Shown here piece after piece: positions 6,862-44,628 of a stretch of 64,000 bases of DNA. Source of the stretch: Saprospiraceae bacterium (GTDB lineage Bacteria; Bacteroidota; Bacteroidia; Chitinophagales; Saprospiraceae); the NCBI GenBank assembly GCA_028282725.1, contig JANQHF010000125.1, positions 34,089 through 98,088 on the forward strand. Direction: 5' to 3'. Position numbers and translations under genes: made by a program. Position 1 is the stretch's first letter. Each line of letters begins with the position of its first letter. The notes beneath the pieces were generated by a model, which was not told where the DNA came from, did not search any database, and worked only from the letters and a program-made list of their open reading frames with translations.

Positions 6862-7192
6862 TTATCGTCTTTCCGAAAACTGGACAAGGGGTTTAAACCT
6901 CTTTTTAATTTGAACTTTCTTATTATAGATTCATATGTCTTCTTGTTACTTTTTCCCTGACGATGAATGTCGGGGTCCATGACATTCGCATGAACCATTA
7001 AGAAAAAGCACATCCAAGGAGTTTTAACCCCTTGATGTCGAATGAATGTGATAAAGCAAATTGAATGTGAATAATCTCACTTTTTCAGGGCACTCCCACT
7101 CATGACTCTAAAGGGGATTTGACTCCTGGATTCTGTCAATGGGCTAAAGCCCATTGGAGGTGATTGATTCAAAGGGGTTAAAACCCATTTCA
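6862..7192. repeat. Cluster of short REP-like palindromes
   Basis: No gene is visible in these 331 bases. Several short palindromes built on GGGGTTTAAACC, GGAGTTTTAACCCC, AATGGGCTAAAGCCCATT and GGGGTTAAAACCC occur near 6888, 7015, 7142 and 7174. The first is followed by five T and could end the trp transcript. The similarity among units suggests a REP-type interspersed repeat with a GGGGTTAAAACCCC-like core. Confidence 0.55.
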
Positions 7193-7918
7193 TCACAACT
7201 CCCTGATCCAAATATTTCTGTACTTCACCGGATTGCCATGATCCTGTAGTTGGATCGGACCATCACCGTGTGCCGGATTTTGAGGTAGGCCAATGAAAGG
7301 TGTTGTTCCTTTCAATTCATAGTGATTTTGGATGACAACACCATTGTGAAGAACGGTAATTGTCCCTGATGCCACCTTGATCCCATCGGCATTAAACCTG
7401 GGTGCTTTGAATATAATGTCGTATTTCTGCCATTCGCCCGGTGCTTTCATGGCATTGACCAGGGGCATGCTTTGCTTGTATATGGATCCTGCCTGCCCAT
7501 TGGAATAGGTACGGTTGTTATAACTATCCAATACCTGGACTTCATATTTATTTTGCAGGAATACTCCGCTGTTTCCTCTACCCTGCCCTTCACCAACGAT
7601 TTCTGTTGGGGCACTCCATTCGACGTGTAGCTGGCAATCGCCAAAATTTTCTTTCGTGAAAATCGGACCTGTCCCCCTGACTACAGTCATGGTGCCATCT
7701 GAGACGTTCCATTTGACAGCGCTTCCATCACCGTGCTGCCAGGCATCGGCATTTGTTCCATCAAACAATACGATGGCATCCGAGGGAACTTCATCTTCAT
7801 TGAAAGTAATGTGCCTTGGTTCGGGCTCCCAGACTTCGGTGGCGACGGGGTCTGTGATTTGGGCGTTGATTGTGGCTGCAAATAGCAACGGGACGATAGA
7901 ACAAACGATTGATTTCAT
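7193..7918 (-). CDS. Secreted DUF1080 (3-keto-disaccharide hydrolase-like) protein
   Basis: A 241-residue protein with a signal peptide ending ...FAATINAQ. The body matches the DUF1080/LamG-like jelly-roll family: IVLFDGTNADAWQHGDG near residue 48, GRGNSGVFLQNKYEVQVLDS near 115 and IQLQDHGNPVKYRNIWIREL at the C terminus. Members of this family include 3-keto-glycoside hydrolases acting on oxidised disaccharides in the periplasm. It stands alone on the minus strand. The fold assignment is firm; the substrate is inferred from the family only. Confidence 0.87.
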   Translation of the reverse strand: MKSIVCSIVPLLFAATINAQITDPVATEVWEPEPRHITFNEDEVPSDAIVLFDGTNADAWQHGDGSAVKWNVSDGTMTVVRGTGPIFTKENFGDCQLHVEWSAPTEIVGEGQGRGNSGVFLQNKYEVQVLDSYNNRTYSNGQAGSIYKQSMPLVNAMKAPGEWQKYDIIFKAPRFNADGIKVASGTITVLHNGVVIQNHYELKGTTPFIGLPQNPAHGDGPIQLQDHGNPVKYRNIWIREL

Positions 7919-36415: not shown

Positions 36416-37336
36416 TCAACTTCTATCCAAAATATAATTAATAACAGCACGACCCACAGCTTGTTGAGTGGACAATTCATATGGAATAAATGTTGGTACA
36501 GGATTCATTTCTAGGCAGTACCAATTAGAATCAGAGTCAATCTTGAAATCCAAACCAGAGAGAACTAAGTTATCCATTGTCGTGGCTTGATGACATAGTA
36601 TCTCCAACTTCTTGGGAAGCTGACATATTGAGTAATTATCTCGATTTTGCGAAAATCGGTAATCAACCGAATTCGAATCAATCCTCGTAGGGAAAACTTG
36701 ACCGTTGATCACATGCACTCTGCAATCGTCCCCTTCGATATATTCCTGTACAACCACAGGTGGGCTACCTTTCCTAACCTTCGATAAAAAATTCTCATCT
36801 ACCATTTTAACATGAGATCTCAACCCAGAGCACGACTTAAAGATTGCCCCAAAGGAACATCTTTTCTTAAATTCAATAATTTCATTCGCATCATTCGTTA
36901 CTATCCATTTGGGAACTTTAAATCCCATTGATGACAGCCATCTCATCTGATAAGGCTTCGAACAGTTCGACAGCCCAGATTTCGGACTATTTACCACAGG
37001 GATAGATAATGAATTTAAGAAATATTTAATTCCCAATCTTCTCTCACGTATCGCGATTTGATTGTGTAATGATGATAAAGTTGTGCCTTTAAATTTGGGG
37101 CTGCTATTTAGCCTAACGAAGAAACCAGCAATACTTCTGATAGATATTGTCTTAGAAGACATCGAAATATGCCCTTGATTTATATCATTATCCTGGTATT
37201 CCAATATCCACTCATGCCCAAACTCTTCTTCTTCAAAAAGAATTGTAGGAATCGAAGATTGATCACAAAGCCATTTAATATACGTGAGTGTTAAATCTTC
37301 AGTATCACCAATTAATCCAATAATTTTTGACCTCAT
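36416..37336 (-). CDS. RimK/MvdD-like ATP-grasp ligase
   Basis: A 306-residue protein with the order pre-ATP-grasp domain then ATP-grasp ligase. Visible are the PVVNSPKSGLSNCSKPYQM joint (MvdC/D and RimK proteins have VxN...K.xQ here), GAIFKSCSG (nucleotide Lys), VVVQEYIEGDDCRVHVI and the magnesium-binding end WYCLEMNPVPTF. Such enzymes form amide or ester bonds on peptides or modify proteins. Its start overlaps the upstream gene by about 30 bases and it uses a TGA stop in normal reading. Confidence 0.85.
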   Translation of the reverse strand: MRSKIIGLIGDTEDLTLTYIKWLCDQSSIPTILFEEEEFGHEWILEYQDNDINQGHISMSSKTISIRSIAGFFVRLNSSPKFKGTTLSSLHNQIAIRERRLGIKYFLNSLSIPVVNSPKSGLSNCSKPYQMRWLSSMGFKVPKWIVTNDANEIIEFKKRCSFGAIFKSCSGLRSHVKMVDENFLSKVRKGSPPVVVQEYIEGDDCRVHVINGQVFPTRIDSNSVDYRFSQNRDNYSICQLPKKLEILCHQATTMDNLVLSGLDFKIDSDSNWYCLEMNPVPTFIPYELSTQQAVGRAVINYILDRS

Positions 37337-38060
37337 TTTCTATTTCAAAAATTACTTTTGATTGCATAGCAGAATCTCGGATATCCGGAAATGGATTAAA
37401 TGTAAATATTTCATTATTTTCAGTTGTTTCAACACATCCATAGTTAATATTAATACCGTTGAGGAACTCGATAACGGATAAAATATCTTTGTTTTCTGGC
37501 CCTGCTATCACTTTGTTCTTAATGAAAAATGTTTTGTAACAAACTCGAAATTTCTCGTAACCCAATCCTAGATATCTTATAAGGGACTTATCAGTAAGTG
37601 TATTTGTTTTCGTCGTGCTAAAATTATAGTAATTATGCTTTCCAGTATCAGCATAGACTAACCCAAAATTTAAATTAGACAGTGAATACCCATTTTCCAA
37701 TAGTACATTTCTCCAGTAACTCCAAGAATCTCCACGAAATAAAGCTGCAGCAGAAAACCTATTCAGCATCCTTAGACTTTTACAATTCATAAAATCTAAT
37801 AATACGGCTTTCATTTCAAGATTGCAAAATTCCTGATCAACAGCAACGAACGATTCTGCAAGACTTTCATTAGGAGATGTCAGATAAATGAATCCATCAA
37901 GTTTGAATCCATTCATTGTTATCTTATCTCCTTTTATTGTTATGGTCTGATCCGCAAGATGATGTGGTCGTATGTGAATCGAGTTAATAAAGATTGAATC
38001 TCTCAAAAAAATATCTAGTGTATCAGATAAGACTAATACATTTATTTTGTTATGATTCAA
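37305..38060 (-). CDS. ATP-grasp partner protein, no catalytic core
   Basis: A 251-residue protein whose order of elements resembles the pre-ATP-grasp half of a RimK-like ligase: a leading VLVLSDTLDIFLRDS strand-turn, then DGFIYLTSPNESLAESF, then LRMLNRFSAAALF, comparable to the VxNrp joint. The later part lacks the glycine loop and the acidic magnesium site, so catalysis is unlikely. The only plausible start at the correct end is a TTG. It lies between the 108-residue gene and the ATP-grasp gene and overlaps the latter, which suggests a helper subunit, as with ligase pairs in peptide maturation. I cannot name the family. Confidence 0.6.
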   Translation of the reverse strand: MNHNKINVLVLSDTLDIFLRDSIFINSIHIRPHHLADQTITIKGDKITMNGFKLDGFIYLTSPNESLAESFVAVDQEFCNLEMKAVLLDFMNCKSLRMLNRFSAAALFRGDSWSYWRNVLLENGYSLSNLNFGLVYADTGKHNYYNFSTTKTNTLTDKSLIRYLGLGYEKFRVCYKTFFIKNKVIAGPENKDILSVIEFLNGININYGCVETTENNEIFTFNPFPDIRDSAMQSKVIFEIENEVKNYWINW

Positions 38061-38083
38061 CTTTATTTTTTTCTTATAGAACG

Positions 38084-38410
38084 TTAACCTCGGAAATTAT
38101 CCTTTTTTAGCTGTAGTGCGACGTCTTTTACAAACCTATCATAAAATGCCGGATCTCTAATCAGGTCGATCGTCCTTTCGAATTCAAGTTCTTTTTTCTT
38201 CTTTTCCCCTCTCAGCCTGTCGAGTAGGATTGCAACAGGAATCTTACCTAATGGAGGTTCTATTTCAAGTTCAACCTTTTTCTTTTCTGGGAATACTTCA
38301 ATAAGTCTTAAGTTGTTTGAACCCAGTGCTGAAATAAAATCAGCAGCGGATATTTCATCAAGAGTTTTTGATCCTAATTCTTCTAATTGTATTGATGCTT
38401 TCTTTTCCAT
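38084..38410 (-). CDS. Small charged protein, possible precursor of the ATP-grasp cluster
   Basis: A 108-residue protein rich in Lys and Glu with no Cys and no double-glycine leader. The N-terminal half (QLEELGSKTLDEISAADFIS) could be a recognition leader, and the middle (KVELEIEPPLGKIPVAILLD) is strand-like. As the first gene of the minus-strand ATP-grasp cluster it is the natural candidate for the modified substrate, but this is inference from position only. It is translated in the standard code and ends in TAA. Confidence 0.55.
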   Translation of the reverse strand: MEKKASIQLEELGSKTLDEISAADFISALGSNNLRLIEVFPEKKKVELEIEPPLGKIPVAILLDRLRGEKKKKELEFERTIDLIRDPAFYDRFVKDVALQLKKDNFRG

Positions 38411-38698
38411 AATTAAATTAATTATAAGGAAGGAATTTAAATTAATCGTTAAATAGACGCAAGTAATTATATCATAATACTTAATTTTAAGTAGGCAAAA
38501 ATGAGTAGTAACATGGTCGAATTCTTCTTTTTGAGTATTATTCCTTTTTTATTCTTTGACAATTGACACATGTAGACATATACACTACTGTCAATTTCTT
38601 GCAGGGAGGACACTTGGCATACTAGACATCTACCCGAATAGATGTTTTTGGTCTTGACATTAATAATCATCTAGATAAAAAGGAGAGGCTACTGACGT
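38411..38698. other. Left boundary region of the recoded segment
   Basis: About 290 gene-poor bases separate the standard-code minus-strand cluster from the first TGA=Gly gene. AAAAGGAGAGG at about 38677-38688 is a good ribosome binding site for the ATG at 38699. The junction between the two codes must lie here, but no inverted repeat or target duplication is obvious. A nine-base AAGGAAGGA appears both here (near 38427) and near 43628, too short to mean much. Confidence 0.5.
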
Positions 38699-39799
38699 AT
38701 GCCTTGTTCATTTATTCATTTACCTACCATCATGAACAAGGATAATTTTGCGATTGCAATGGAATATATGAAGTTCTTAGAGGAGATCAGGGGGCTGTCC
38801 AAGAGTTCGATTTGTACTAAGAAGTTGCACTTACGTCGTTTTGTCGATTTTATCTGATCGAAGGAATTGAATTCGCTGAATATCAACGAGATCTGTGCTT
38901 TTGTTGGGTTTCTTAAAAACTTAGACAGATGATTTCACTCAAGGTATCACTATACTGGTGAAGGAAAGCTTTCATTGATTACCGTGCAGAACTACATGAG
39001 CACCATCAGGCATTTTTTTAAGTGGACCAATTCAATGGGATACACATATAAGGTCGATCCAAACCTGATTCAATCACCGAGGACGACAAGGACTAAAATT
39101 GATCCATTAAACAATGATGAACTACAGGGAATACTGAGTGCCCCGTTTAGGTTCGAATATAGGGAGGACACAAAATATCGTAACGCATTGTTAATTCATG
39201 TGTGATATTATATGGGACTTAGGATCACCGAGGCTATTAACCTTTCCTTCAAGGATTTATTATCACCCTGTCAGGAGGTAACAGTACTTTGAAAGGGTAA
39301 AAGAAAAAGGACGCTGTACATACCAAATACAATTCAGGATTTGGCAAAAGAGTATCAAAGAATAAGACAGTCGACCTCATTAATTCCCATTCAGCAGACG
39401 TCTTGTAACGGTAAACCTTATGTGAGATATTGCAAGGTCACTGATCTTAATCCTCATCTGCCTTTTGTGAGCCTGGATACGGTGAAATATGGCAAACTCA
39501 TGAAAGGAGCATCTACCAGTGCCTTTTTCAGAAAATATGAAAAGGCATTGTGACTCGAAAATAGAATTACATATCATAGGCTCAGACATACTTTTTGAAG
39601 GCATTTGCTGAATAAGGGAATTGACTTATATACGATCGGACAAATGCTTGGTCACCAAACCATTTATGCCACTCAATACTACTTGCATGCTGATCACGAA
39701 AAGGTTCGTAATGCGCAGAAATCACTTTTCGATTTTGGGCAATTTAGTAATTCATGAATGACAAAGGATCCCATCGTTCAACAATATGTCAATGAGTAA
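38699..39799 (+). CDS. Xer-like tyrosine recombinase in the TGA=Gly code
   Basis: Read normally this is broken by TGA codons at 38855, 38930, 39203, 39290, 39551, 39596 and 39755, yet the frame has no TAA or TAG for 366 codons. With TGA as Gly it is a full XerC/D-type recombinase: SAM-like N domain (ITVQNYMSTIRHFFKWTNS), catalytic Arg in YYMGLRITEAINL, the beta-hairpin Lys in VLGKGKRKRTLYIP (first Gly is TGA), box II HRLRHTFGRHLL (Gly is TGA), LGHQT, and the Tyr in TQYYLHAD. The GKGxKxR motif almost demands Gly. TGG codons also occur (FFKWTNS), so TGA is not Trp. About a third of its Gly codons are TGA. Confidence 0.92.
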
Positions 39800-40289
39800 C
39801 AGATAGTATTATCTTTTTATCCGAAACAAATGTTAGAGGAGAAAATGGCTAGTAGATAAGTATATTCAATAGGCCATTTAATAATAATAGTTATTACGAT
39901 GAAATTCCCTTGTATTTATATCAATCTCTCTTATAAGGATGACAGTCGTCCCACCTAAGGGATATGAAGAAAGTTACCAACTGCATTTTCTATGAAATTA
40001 AAACAAGGGAGCTCAAAAAGATTGAACGTATTAAGACTGTCGCCGAAGACATTTACAAATATTGTCCGAGGCTGTCAGATGAATTATGCTGTGCTTGCCT
40101 AGAAGAGAAAAAAGAGAGAATGCAATTACTTCTTTCAAATTGGGGCGACTTCCGTCGCCTTTTTTAATTCAAGGTATACGTTAGTAGCAACAGAAGACGG
40201 GCTTTTATTTTTTCACAAAGTTATCATGCGTTGTAGACATCCATGTTAGTTTGAAAAGCTGTGCTTTATTCTTTTACAAAAATTTGACA
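39800..40289. other. Gap in the recoded segment with a possible tiny ORF
   Basis: No long frame is open here under either code. A 67-codon ATG frame at 39964-40167 has a Cys cluster (CPRLSDELCCACLEEKK) and an AAGGGATATG-type start context, but it runs through the terminator at 40144-40165, which makes it doubtful. No tRNA with a UCA anticodon, which TGA=Gly reading would need, is seen. Confidence 0.45.
40144..40165 (+). terminator. Intrinsic terminator inside the recoded segment
   Basis: A perfect 6-bp GC-rich stem GGCGAC-TTCC-GTCGCC is followed by six T. It could end transcription from the recombinase gene before the mobilisation genes begin. Confidence 0.7.
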
Positions 40290-40451
40290 ATGTATCTATT
40301 CGAACTCATTGACCAGGCAGAAGAATTTCAAGCTCATCTATGACCAATGACCAAGGTATTCATACAAAGTGAACAAGAACATCTTATCGAGGTATTTCGC
40401 CTTAAGTCAATCACCGATGAATTAGGTACTCGTTTCGTCATCGTCGAGTAG
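40290..40451 (+). CDS. Short recoded frame, possibly the 5' part of the next one
   Basis: A 53-codon frame starting with ATG (MYLFELIDQAEEFQAHL) with one internal TGA at 40341 and ending at TAG 40449-40451. The same frame stays open after the TAG into the next small gene. Either these are two little genes or one gene broken by a TAG. Function is unknown. Confidence 0.4.
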
Positions 40452-40472
40452 TTTTATTTAATAAAGAAGCTG

Positions 40473-40808
40473 ATGCAACAGCAGTGTAAAATCCATTTTG
40501 TCGGTGGTTATCACGTCAATTTACCTTGAGAATTATTCCCGGAGATTATCGAGTCCATTCGTCACGGAAAGTCAAACTTTGAACATGACGGCCAACTCTT
40601 CAATTTGAATCAATATGAGCACATCAGTTTAGAGAGTGCTCAGACTGAAGTGGAAAGGTATATCGATACCCAGTCTCCCGAAATTAAAGAGCAACTATTA
40701 TTGATTAAAAAGATGAGAGTTAAGAAGTATCCGTATAAAAGACCATTTGCAAATGTTGAGCATGTGGATCAATTCATAAAAGAGATTAAGAAGTGAAAGT
40801 TCCATTAA
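40473..40808 (+). CDS. Small recoded protein of unknown function
   Basis: In the TGA=Gly code this is a 111-residue protein with TGA at 40527 and 40794 and a TAA stop. Sequences such as KIHFVGGYHVNLPGELFPEI and KEQLLLIKKMRVKKYPYKRP look like a real globular protein, but I do not recognise it. In standard code the middle would be cut at LNQYEH, leaving a 63-residue remnant. It precedes the VirD4-like gene by about 100 bases. Confidence 0.5.
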
Positions 40809-40907
40809 TCCTTCTATTAAAAGGTCGTACCATGTGGAAGTGAAATGCCTGTAGCTATATAGCTTTCGATAGAGAGACCATACTGCATTTATATCGTATT
40901 TAATGGA

Positions 40908-42335
40908 ATGCGCACACGGCGGTATCGAATTAAGCGGATTACGAAGAGGGTCTATTGGTTTTTCGAAAGGATGCTCTTTGTCAGGCTAAAATGGTATTGT
41001 GTCTTAAGGATGTTGTATCTGTTTAATGCTATACCAAAGAGATACAGATGTAGTCATATGTACATAACTGGAAAAACAGGTTCATGAAAAAGCAGTTGGC
41101 TTGAACAGTGGGTGTATGCCCTGCGACGGACGAGCAGACGTAGCCATGATTCTTGTGTCATTTTCTTGGATCCACATGGCGATACGGTTCAAAGAATTAG
41201 AAGATTTGATCTGGCAAAGAAGGTTAAATCGAGACTGGTATATCTAGATCCAGTGCTTATGAAGTGACATACTCCTACCATCAATCCATTAGAATGCCGG
41301 GAAAAGGACGGCTATCGTATTGAATTACAGGCACAACAGCTATTGAGGGCTTTTGAAGAAATGATGCCAGAAGCACATTTTACCAATCACATGAGGGCAT
41401 TACTGAAACCATGTCTTTATACTTTGATGACATTAAGCGATGCCTCGTTGGTTGACCTTCAACAGCTAATAACCGGTGGCGATAAAAGACTCATGGAACT
41501 CGGAAGAAAAAGTAGAGTTGGGTCTTACAGAAAGTTCTTTAGACAAGAATTTGACAACCCCAATTACCGCATGACAAAAGGCAGCCTATACACAAAGCTC
41601 CAGAGCTTGCTGAATTCCCAAATCTTTATGCAAATGTGTGTTGGTAAAAGCACTGTGAATCTCGAGCAGTGCATCAGATGAGGGAAGATTGTTTTGTTCA
41701 ATTTGAGTAAGGGGGCCATCGGCGAAGAAGTATGTGAGACTATCGGCAGATTTATCATTGCGCAAGTCAAGAGCATTGCCTTTAAGAGAACGAATTTACC
41801 TGAATGAAGAAGGAAAAAAATCTTCCTAATCATAGATGAAGCGGATACCTTTGTCAAGGGAGATAGCTTAAACGTGATACTAAAAGAAACCAGGAAATAT
41901 GGACTCTATTTGATCCTCGCAACGCAAAATCTTATAGATGGGAAAGGACAATCAAGACTCAAGAATAACTTATTGAATAACACTCATGTCAAAGTCATTG
42001 GAACGAATGGCTTTCGCACCATCAAACGTTTTAGCCAGGAAATCGGGATACATCATAAAAGACTACTAAAATTGCCATTGCACTTCTTCTGGATACATTA
42101 TGGTACTAAAGGAAAGTTAGTTCGTACGGCCAACGTCTTTTTCCCTGGAAGCCCCGTATTAGCGAGAAAATCTGAGGTCTTAAAACAAACAAATTATCTC
42201 ATTTATAAGTCAGGATACTATAAACCAATTCTACAAAGTCAATTGGACATCAAAGATACTCTGGACGATTATCCTTATGATCGGCATGATCGTATTCAGA
42301 ATCATGAAAAACCTCTTCCAAAATTTAGTTACTAG
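40908..42335 (+). CDS. VirD4/HerA-like DNA-transfer ATPase in the TGA=Gly code
   Basis: A 475-codon frame with four internal TGA codons (41085, 41265, 41679, 41805), no TAA or TAG, ending at TAG. The Walker A motif reads HMYITGKTGSGKSSWLEQ, and its essential second Gly of GSGKS is TGA at 41085. Then come VIFLDPHGDTVQRI, LDPVLMKGHTPTINPLE (Gly is TGA), GKIVLFNLSKGAIGEE preceded by a TGA Gly, the Walker B IFLIIDEADTFV, and LILATQNL. This is the architecture of conjugative coupling/HerA-type ATPases. The ATG at 40908 is plausible; the frame is open a little further upstream. Confidence 0.92.
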
Positions 42336-42341
42336 ATAAAC

Positions 42342-43190
42342 ATGAAATGAAATCGTGATGTACAAGCCCGGATAATGGAGCAATTGTGGATATATAAATA
42401 CCTTTCTGTAGGTCAATTTGAGTATGCCGGTTGGCCTTTGAGCAGAAAGTCATTGTACGAAAACCTTAGAAGGCTTAGGGAGAAATGTCTTATTAGAACT
42501 GAATCTTTTCGCTATGGACCGTGAATAGGTAAAAAGGAAGACATACATTACTTGTCTGTCAAATGATGAAAATTCTTATCGGATGGATATTGAATAGAGT
42601 GGATGAGAAATGCTCCGAAAAACTGGCCCGTTCATCTCACTGATCAGTACGAACATAGAAAGATGACGATCAATGTTCATATATCTCTAAGACAAGCCTT
42701 GTGACAATCCAAATTTCCTGTCATTCGATATTACAATTACTTCGATCGTATCAAATCACCCCAAACTTGACGTTATGCGTGTTCTACGAAATTGGACTGG
42801 AATGATACTTCCATTAAACCAGACTCGATTTTCCTAATCTGAAGTTGAGAAAGTCAATACCTATTCTGTCTTGAATTACACAGAGAATACAGAGTCAAGA
42901 GAATCCTGAAACAATTGAAAGTCTATGGTCACTTGTTGGCTAACGGAACCCCGGCACTGAAATTTGGAATCCAAAAGAGTGCCCGTATTCTGACGGTTTT
43001 TGAAAAGGAAAGTACTTTAAGAAGTTCGTACGAGCAGATGAAATCTGATCCGTTCTATGAGTTTTTGAAAGGCTACTTCCTTTTCAAATCATACAATCAA
43101 CTATTAAGGGAGCCAGTAAATAATTGGATCGATCTAAATGGAACGAGATGCTCCCTATTTCTAACAAACAAAAATTGAATCAATGAATAA
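42342..43190 (+). CDS. Replication-relaxation-like protein in the TGA=Gly code
   Basis: A 282-codon frame containing ten TGA (42348, 42522, 42564, 42567, 42591, 42702, 42768, 42840, 42846, 43176), no TAA or TAG, ending in TAA. Read as Gly, it matches the replication-relaxation family: an N-terminal winged-helix part (EQLWIYKYLSVGQFEYAGW, then SLYENLRRLREKCLI), IHYLSVKGGKFLSDG, and the nuclease-like PDSIFLIGSGESQYLFCLEL with VKRILKQLKVYGHL. These proteins accompany plasmid mobilisation genes. It starts seven bases after the VirD4-like stop and overlaps the RadC start by eight bases. Confidence 0.88.
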
Positions 43191-43629
43191 GACTATCCCC
43201 AAAGTTGAAGTGTCCTTTCGTCCTAATAGAAATCTATCCGAACGGGTTTACTTAAAGTCGAGCGATGAAGTTTATAAAGTAGCAATCGATACATGGAATT
43301 TGGATACGATTGAACTGTTTGAGGAGTTTATGGCCGTTTATCTGGATAGGAGAAATGGAATCATCGGTATCAGAGAGATTAGTCGTGGAGGAACTGCAGG
43401 TACTGTCGTTGATATCAAAATTGTGATTAGCATCGCTATTGCTTGCAATGCCTCTGGTCTGATTCTCCTTCATAATCATCCTTCAGGGATGACAAGTCCA
43501 TCTCACCAGGACATATCTCTGACAGACAAAATCAAAGCTGCCGCTCAGCTCTTTGATATTAATCTGTTAGATCATCTCATTATTACACGTGAGACGTATT
43601 ATTCTTTTACGGATAATGGACACATTTAA
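43183..43629 (+). CDS. radC: RadC-like JAB-domain protein
   Basis: A 148-residue protein with the JAB/RadC metal motif LILLHNHPSGMTSPSHQD near residue 95 and the family end LLDHLIITRETYYSFTDNG. RadC-like proteins are very frequent in Bacteroidota mobile elements, but their role is unclear. It contains no TGA, so it reads the same in both codes. Its ATG overlaps the TAA of the recoded gene before it, which argues that it belongs to the recoded operon. A terminator follows directly. Confidence 0.85.
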   Translation: MNKTIPKVEVSFRPNRNLSERVYLKSSDEVYKVAIDTWNLDTIELFEEFMAVYLDRRNGIIGIREISRGGTAGTVVDIKIVISIAIACNASGLILLHNHPSGMTSPSHQDISLTDKIKAAAQLFDINLLDHLIITRETYYSFTDNGHI

Positions 43630-43634
43630 GGAAG

Positions 43635-43662
43635 GAGCACAGTATTCTGTGCCCTTTTTATT
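43635..43662 (+). terminator. Terminator after the RadC-like gene
   Basis: A hairpin with stem GCACAG-TATT-CTGTGC plus flanking pairs is followed by CCTTTTTATTTT. It ends the plus-strand recoded operon, 20 bases before the convergent DUF1566-like gene. Confidence 0.75.
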
Positions 43663-43680
43663 TTATCCACGAAGGAATGA

Positions 43681-44628
43681 TTAAAACTGTCGTATGGCCC
43701 TTACCGCTCCAAGTTGATCTTTTGATGTCAAATTTGTTCCAGCAAAGTGGAATCTATAGTAAATCGCAAATGCCGGAGCAGTATGTTCCGTACTGGACCA
43801 ATAGAAAGTGGCATTGTTATCCGCGAGAAACCCATTGGTCATGTTATCACCATCAGAATCGAGAATTTTACTCAAAATGGGAGCAGCTATGTATAAATGA
43901 TTCAATTCCCATATTGAAGGAAGATACCAATCATTGTAACCATCGAAAGAGTAATCATCACACAGTTTTGCCGCATACGGAGTACCTCCATTGTTTCCTA
44001 CAGCACTAACGATCTTTGTAGTATTGGAAAGTCCGTCATAATATTCTGTCCGATCTCCATTTCCTAAATTGGGCACATCGGTCCCAATACCGCCCCATTC
44101 CACATCGCCCGACAAATTGTCCAATGAGGCTATTAAGCCATTATTCCCATCATTCCAGACAGCAAATACGATTCCGCCACCAAATAACTCACCTATGTAA
44201 TGTCCACTACTGTTGCCAGAAGGTATAATTACATGACCACCATCAGACAGGAAAATAGTATCGCTGGATATGCTTAAAAATTGTAGCTCATTGGTATCGC
44301 TACTATCCTGTAAGAAAGGATTCATGTCAACACTTAAAAGACTATTCGTGAGTGACAGCGAATCATTGGTCAATACTAAGTCCTGCAATTCATTGGTGGG
44401 ATCTCCATCCACCTCATCAAGAGTTGAAAAATCGAGCAAAACCCAGTTATTACCGTTCCATCCTTCGAAATGAGAGCCATTCCATCGAATGGTACCGGGT
44501 GAAGGGATGGGATCATCATTATTGGCCACGATTATGGCACCCTCAATTACGAGTTTTTCGTCTTGGGCCTGAAGAGAGATGGGAAAGAAAATAAATAAAC
44601 CGAAAAAAGGAATAACTGTCTTTAGCAC
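43681..44628 (-). CDS. Secreted Lcl/DUF1566-like protein
   Basis: A 315-residue protein with a signal peptide (MLKTVIPFFGLFIFFPISLQAQ). The C-terminal 150 residues show the Lcl/DUF1566 pattern: HYIGELFGGGIVFAVWNDG, then AAKLCDDYSFDGYNDWYLPS, then ATFYWSSTEHTAPAFAIYY, the same order as in surface adhesin or sulfatase-like folds of this family. The N-terminal half has GTIRWNGSHFEGWNGNNWV, a module often found in Bacteroidota tail-fibre-like surface proteins. This marks the return to ordinary standard-code Bacteroidota sequence. Confidence 0.8.
   Translation of the reverse strand: MLKTVIPFFGLFIFFPISLQAQDEKLVIEGAIIVANNDDPIPSPGTIRWNGSHFEGWNGNNWVLLDFSTLDEVDGDPTNELQDLVLTNDSLSLTNSLLSVDMNPFLQDSSDTNELQFLSISSDTIFLSDGGHVIIPSGNSSGHYIGELFGGGIVFAVWNDGNNGLIASLDNLSGDVEWGGIGTDVPNLGNGDRTEYYDGLSNTTKIVSAVGNNGGTPYAAKLCDDYSFDGYNDWYLPSIWELNHLYIAAPILSKILDSDGDNMTNGFLADNNATFYWSSTEHTAPAFAIYYRFHFAGTNLTSKDQLGAVRAIRQF

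Follow-up and report, generated by a model that had tools for sequence, protein, structure and literature searches.

A lineage that uses a divergent genetic code is commonly regarded as shut off from gene exchange. In standard-code hosts, phages and prophages written in a foreign code are known, often carrying decoding genes (PMC10746230), and the sections of the same work dealing with phages compatible with both codes describe them as able, possibly, to infect code-25 as well as standard-code bacteria. For Absconditabacteria, reassignment of TGA to Gly and of both CGA and CGG to Trp has been described, whereas only CGG was reported as Trp for some Gracilibacteria (PMC8629427). Here, a stretch of 64,000 nucleotides from a Saprospiraceae bacterium (assembly GCA_028282725.1, contig JANQHF010000125.1, positions 34,089 to 98,088 of the forward strand; hereafter the window) was analyzed with respect to a group of TGA-rich genes starting at window position 38699. 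We consider it probable that this segment is a plasmid-like mobile element written in an Absconditabacteria-type code and that it is likely inserted in the chromosome of a Saprospirales-type Bacteroidota host, which would be unable to translate it. The preliminary description had proposed that DNA of a code-25-type organism was placed in a Bacteroidota genome; the analysis supported this proposal, narrowed the likely origin to Absconditabacteria by the behavior of CGA/CGG as Trp, and added that the element also carries a standard-coded RadC gene.

The element resembles alternatively coded phages and prophages, as those are treated in PMC10746230, in having a foreign code inside a standard-code genome and standard-coded and recoded genes side by side. 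By contrast, no phage structural or terminase gene was named by Pfam among the frames scanned, scans of the element yielded no transfer RNA (tRNA), and, besides the stop codon, two sense codons appear to be reassigned. Neither a synthetase nor a release factor was noted in the element, no search having been aimed at them. With the phages compatible with both codes the element shares the traffic between code groups, but those phages are described as avoiding in-frame TGA (PMC10746230), whereas elements of the window type are full of it. The cryptic plasmid pM02_c5 of an uncultured bacterium (JX194159.1) is similar in its VirD4-like ATPase (30.5%), Rep, ParA, resolvase and toxin-antitoxin genes; however, these genes are annotated in the standard code and the plasmid is circular. 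Overall, plasmid and phage searches yielded remote relatives only. Compared with the Absconditabacteria code (NCBI code 25 with CGA/CGG reassigned), the likeness lies in both reassignments occurring within the same genes, the difference in the elements sitting in genomes that use TGA as a stop and retain release factor 2 (RF2). No report of such recoded elements was found in the published literature searched, preprints being outside its scope.

Four recoded frames are located on the plus strand of the window. The tyrosine recombinase (38699-39799, 366 codons, Pfam Phage_integrase), the ATPase resembling coupling proteins (TrwB/VirD4) of type IV secretion systems (40908-42335, 475 codons, Pfam TrwB_AAD_bind) and the replication-relaxation-like protein (42342-43190, 282 codons) contain 7, 4 and 10 in-frame TGA codons, respectively, and no TAA or TAG, in agreement with the lengths, counts and coordinates of the preliminary description. 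Beyond these three, a 111-codon gene with two TGA (40473-40808) was found to have a homologue at the corresponding position of L051, which carries another such element (7179-7523; E=1e-23, with 36% identity across 104 residues). All four frames together comprise 1234 codons with 23 TGA, 0 TAA and 0 TAG, as compared to 24 TGA, 39 TAA and 24 TAG expected from base composition; the chance of 23 out of 23 stops being TGA is 1.4e-13, a figure that overstates the case because the frames were chosen for being open. In the neighboring host genes TGA is a stop, as previously claimed: the 35 open reading frames of at least 200 aa outside the element end with TAA (18), TGA (11) or TAG (6). The replication-relaxation-like protein had no Pfam match of its own; it scored 195 bits against a profile built from 10 standard-coded counterparts, and its recoded counterpart in L086 matched PF13814 Replic_Relax with 29.9 bits.

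The reading of TGA as Gly in these genes is shown by profile columns, Pfam scores and codon exchange between related copies, and the earlier assignment was upheld. In a Codetta-like test based on profiles of standard-coded homologues, 48 of 53 TGA codons in nine frames were alignable, and Gly scored +7.6 nats, followed by Lys with +2.1; the lead of Gly is modest because many TGA columns are variable. Twelve TGA columns had a leading residue (≥0.35) in the standard-coded homologues, namely Gly in nine, Ala in two, Leu in one and Trp in none, and most of the other columns were variable; the refuting outcome that the preliminary description had named was thus not observed. The Phage_integrase score of the window recombinase was highest with TGA read as Gly (90.4 bits), followed by Ser (89.1), Cys (88.0), Trp (83.9) and Arg (82.2), and the same held for a recoded DNA methylase (Gly 157.9, Ser 150.4, Cys 147.3, Arg 142.6, Trp 140.7). 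Similarly, a resolvase scored 88.5 bits with Gly and 75.4 with Trp, and the window ATPase, in which one of the four TGA codons occupies the Walker A Gly (KTGS-TGA-KSS), reached 44.6 bits against TrwB_AAD_bind with Gly and 36.9 with Trp. The comparison of close copies is a sharper code test than the profile test: among the elements of G919, G1128 and G1305, TGA was paired with TGA 41 times, with GGN 28 times, with Ser codons 9 times and with others 15 times (Trp once). The alternative assignment of TGA to Trp was tried and ruled out by the profile columns, the Pfam scores and these codon partners.

The best database matches of the window ATPase, P0001-P0015 (44-52% identity), have 2.3-5.6% Trp overall and carry it at glycine positions, among them those of Walker A. 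Trp content is at most 1.3% in P0016-P0020 and P0022-P0059 and 3.2% in the fragment P0021; P0016 has 1.1% Trp, but one Trp lies inside Walker A. P0001-P0015 are TGA=Gly genes misread by a gene caller that sets TGA to Trp, and the same is to be said of P0199, the nearest protein to the window recombinase (50%), which has Trp at conserved Gly positions. In a tree of 62 ATPases, built without the copies found later, the window and L051 copies fall into one clade with P0001-P0015 (100/100), a grouping obtained from the tree that had been proposed in the preliminary description, and the recoded ATPases of L084 and L086 fall at two other places among standard-coded copies.

Regarding the sense codons, CGA and CGG behave alike among G919, G1128 and G1305: their partners other than CGA/CGG were TGG (11), Gln (4), Tyr (2) and TGA (1) and never another Arg codon, and AGR/CGY codons were paired with R (232) and K (52) and never with CGR. 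In the ATPases of the window, L051 and L146, the sequences P0001-P0015 show Trp at 8 of 15 CGA/CGG columns as compared to 1 of 79 other-Arg columns (p=4.8e-7); for the window ATPase alone, with 8 such codons of which 5 are alignable, the values are 3 of 5 and 0 of 34 (p=0.001). The ArdC protein of G227 has CGA at both W positions of PWxxxW, which we take to be the ArdC motif, and its Pfam score rises from 94.3 to 105.2 bits with CGA/CGG read as Trp; over the five proteins tested in this way besides the window ATPase, the changes were +10.9, +5.3, +0.6, +0.5 and -0.1 bits. It is likely that CGA/CGG encode Trp in the window element, where this reading is drawn from the family alignment. Since CGA and CGG both behave as Trp, the code of the element points to Absconditabacteria rather than to Gracilibacteria in general. 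A donor from another code-25 lineage, i.e., Gracilibacteria, at least for some elements such as L084 and L086, appears rather unlikely: TGA=Gly is common to both lineages and the ATPases of these two elements, besides their separate positions in the tree, lack a Trp signal at CGR (2 usable codons), yet in the window clade, in G227 and in the g217 elements both codons, CGA and CGG, behave as Trp, which does not match the CGG-only reassignment reported for some Gracilibacteria (PMC8629427).

The element mixes codes, as judged from RadC and from further genes in its relatives. The standard-coded RadC/JAB protein of the window (43183-43629, plus strand, 148 codons, PF04002 with 126.2 bits) has 0 TGA beside 8 GGN codons and overlaps the preceding recoded frame by 8 bp; in L051, RadC begins about 20 bases after a recoded frame and terminates at TGATGA. 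CGA/CGG codons in both RadC genes lie at Arg/Lys-rich or variable columns, and in the RadC tree, which has some long branches, both group with the host's own RadC (contig C2) and P0083 (100/98). The exact window RadC protein (P0079) is recorded on three database contigs; the longest measures 98,088 bases, the position at which the host contig ends, and the remaining two could be independent assemblies. In the three g217 elements taken together, one gene (about 200 codons long) uses GGN 34 times and TGA not once, and TGA makes up a fifth to half of the Gly codons in its recoded neighbors. Read in the Absconditabacteria code, the recoded genes of G919, G1128 and G1305 gave ratios of nonsynonymous to synonymous substitution (dN/dS) of 0.08-0.16 in 8 of 10 pairs (two were saturated, and the pairs overlap), and two standard-coded genes of the same elements gave 0.06-0.16. 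On these values, recoded and standard-coded genes are both under purifying selection.

The decoding capacity of the hosts was analyzed via tRNAs and release factors. RF2 was present in all eight hosts tested, G1128 and G1305 being outside that set. No UCA anticodon was found among 34 of the 35 tRNA matches of G000 read by ARAGORN, the 35th, a weak match, reading TCG by eye, nor among the 30 of 31 matches read in G208. The host is therefore taken not to be a code-25 organism. The element stretches of 10 carriers scanned held no tRNA except tRNA-Val(GAC) in L147; two host-type tRNAs lie in stretches L085 and L087. A suppressor tRNA in element or host was considered as a candidate, and none was found in the element stretches, G000 or G208. 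Moreover, the host Arg tRNAs (ACG, TCG) would read CGA/CGG, and therefore a TGA suppressor alone would be insufficient. Taking together the presence of RF2, the lack of a UCA tRNA among those read and the Arg tRNAs for CGA/CGG, it is probable that the products of the recoded genes are not formed in Bacteroidota. The converse explanation, namely that the elements are native to Bacteroidota and that TGA (and CGR) is decoded there via a special tRNA as in some phages, would account for the intact frames, for the purifying selection seen among three congeneric species and for the split of standard-coded and recoded frames by gene, as in the recoded phages described in PMC10746230; we regard it as unlikely in view of the tRNA and RF2 results.

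Recurrence of the element type was assessed by a profile search for ATPase homologues that read through and counted all stops (cut-off E≤1e-100); the genome surveys scored the best three or four candidates per genome, and the numbers of recoded copies are thus lower bounds. Among 33 distinct Bacteroidota copies, 8 had 4-13 TGA, one had one TGA, one had one TAG and 23 had none; G574, with one TGA, was not counted as recoded, the single TGA of G373 was disregarded because it precedes the probable start, and the TAA tallied for G250 is the terminal stop. These 8 recoded copies, from 8 species of two families, contain 61 TGA in total and no internal TAA or TAG. Recoded ATPases (≥4 TGA) were found in at least 5 of 398 genomes of the host family (G000, G208, G021, G250 and G520), at least 4 of 396 in the order-level scan, at least 2 of 395 in the phylum-wide scan (G919 and G000) and at least 3 of 296 genomes of the G919 family (G919, G1128 and G1305). 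In G021 and in G520, the recoded ATPase shares its contig with a standard-coded one, and two further carriers have recoded genes beside a standard-coded ATPase, i.e., a C5 methylase in G382 and DUF4215, Rep3, ArdC and RadC with 6 TGA in G227. A plain listing of TGA-only frames contained many antisense shadows, and TAA-only frames occurred too; for this reason only frames with homology or motif support were used, and the count of 205 TGA and 0 TAA/TAG in 27 frames, true by construction, was not taken as evidence.

This distribution bears on the possibility that short Absconditabacteria contigs were wrongly joined into Bacteroidota contigs during assembly or binning. The genomes in question are mostly drafts, the contigs that encode P0001-P0015 are short (1.8-16 kb), and Absconditabacteria contamination was met in other assemblies by the authors of Codetta, as mentioned in PMC8629427. 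However, in the 8 ATPase-carrying species of two families the elements are surrounded by standard-coded genes on contigs that measure 49-362 kb, and a Bacteroidota-type RadC directly adjoins recoded frames in the window and in L051. G919, G1128 and G1305 have about 5 to 9.5 kb in common at 69-86% identity, with largely different surroundings. The assembly chimera that the preliminary description had allowed for is very unlikely because independent genomes carry recoded elements, DNA of this kind being found on 34-577 kb contigs of 10 separate Bacteroidota genomes. The view that the frames are ordinary pseudogenes, with TGA by chance the commonest stop, has nothing in its favor beyond the presence of stops, and can practically be dismissed in view of the absence of internal TAA and TAG in 8 copies with 61 TGA, of Gly at TGA and of a dN/dS of about 0.1.

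Several observations weigh against an integrated element in Absconditabacteria-type code. Absconditabacteria are proposed as the donor solely on the basis of the code, and the ATPase family had no homologue in the viral contigs searched. Neither an attachment site nor an empty site was shown, the relatives examined for an empty site being uninformative. Three of the 12 TGA columns with a leading residue have Ala or Leu there, PemK is indifferent to the reading of TGA (Gly 47.1, Arg 47.4, Ser 47.5 bits) and DUF4215 separates Gly from Arg weakly (35.8 vs 33.0 bits). The Pfam score of the window ATPase drops from 44.6 to 40.1 bits with CGA/CGG read as Trp, and to this the two codons of L084 and L086 without Trp signal are to be added. 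Finally, the purifying selection could also be compatible with decoding inside Bacteroidota, for which whole-genome tRNAs were checked in 2 of the 10 carriers and RF2 in 8 of 10.

Despite these points we favor the integrated mobile element, and propose a donor, a route and a two-host cycle for it. Site-specific recombinases are of the tyrosine type in the window and of the serine type in L051 and L168; no relaxase or mating-pair gene was found, the frames scanned showing only a coupling-protein-like ATPase and Rep3/Replic_Relax proteins. Vampirococcus lugosii, an Absconditabacterium, was described as an epibiont feeding on gammaproteobacteria (PMC8080830), and close contact of the epibiont type gives occasion for DNA transfer. 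Following this, the element would live and be expressed in an Absconditabacteria-type cell, enter Bacteroidota by cell contact, perhaps via its coupling ATPase, and insert there by means of a recombinase that either the donor cell or the host would have to supply. In Bacteroidota, the recoded recombinase, ATPase and relaxation-like genes would be silent, and of these genes' neighbors the standard-coded RadC would be produced. Because a standard-coded gene that lacks internal TGA remains readable under either code, and because selection acts on both sets of genes, the element likely alternates between two kinds of host with repeated passage through both. As a tentative proposal, which we hold at somewhat less than even confidence, these elements may form a two-host, two-code class, with one portion of each element in the Absconditabacteria code, another in the standard code, and selection maintaining both. 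They would cycle between Absconditabacteria epibionts and the Bacteroidota they live on, the code acting as a switch by which the element is active in only one of the two partners, with no need for decoding genes.

Apparent Absconditabacteria-code DNA lying intact in many Bacteroidota genomes suggests that the wall formed by a different code would stop the reading of genes and not the passage of DNA. To our knowledge, few host pairs of Absconditabacteria are known, and the code of the elements may by itself reveal with which bacteria Absconditabacteria-type cells come into contact. At TGA, these genes are split by gene callers, and protein databases contain related sequences with Trp in place of Gly (P0001-P0015, P0199); a simple filter on the Trp/Gly ratio might reveal more misread genes there.

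The left edge of the insert is placed within 38411-38698 or slightly beyond, where no attachment repeat was established, and the right edge within 43630-43680 or beyond, the next gene being 43681-44628 on the minus strand; repeats at the edges were short direct ones, e.g., of 10 bp (38425 and 43627). Adjoining the insert, two ATP-grasp-like or companion genes together with a 108-aa gene (36416-38410) resemble, by eye, a peptide-modification cluster. Beside the second recoded element, L051 11447-14143 has by eye the appearance of a defense operon of the cyclic oligonucleotide-based antiphage signaling system (CBASS) type, with patatin-like, CD-NTase-like and E2-like genes. In G208, a 310-codon frame with 11 TGA, no TAA or TAG and no Pfam match (L083 2336-3265, minus strand) lies about 8 kb from the main element and may represent another recoded insert, separate from the first. 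Contig C34 of G1305 has a frame of 1216 codons with 28 TGA (L178 7975-11622, minus strand), which would encode a very large recoded protein, possibly a surface protein. On host contig C2, a standard-coded RadC stands opposite an ATPase resembling HerA and type IV coupling proteins (L050 6968-7516 and 7646-8833), and this pair may belong to a related element of that host written in the standard code.

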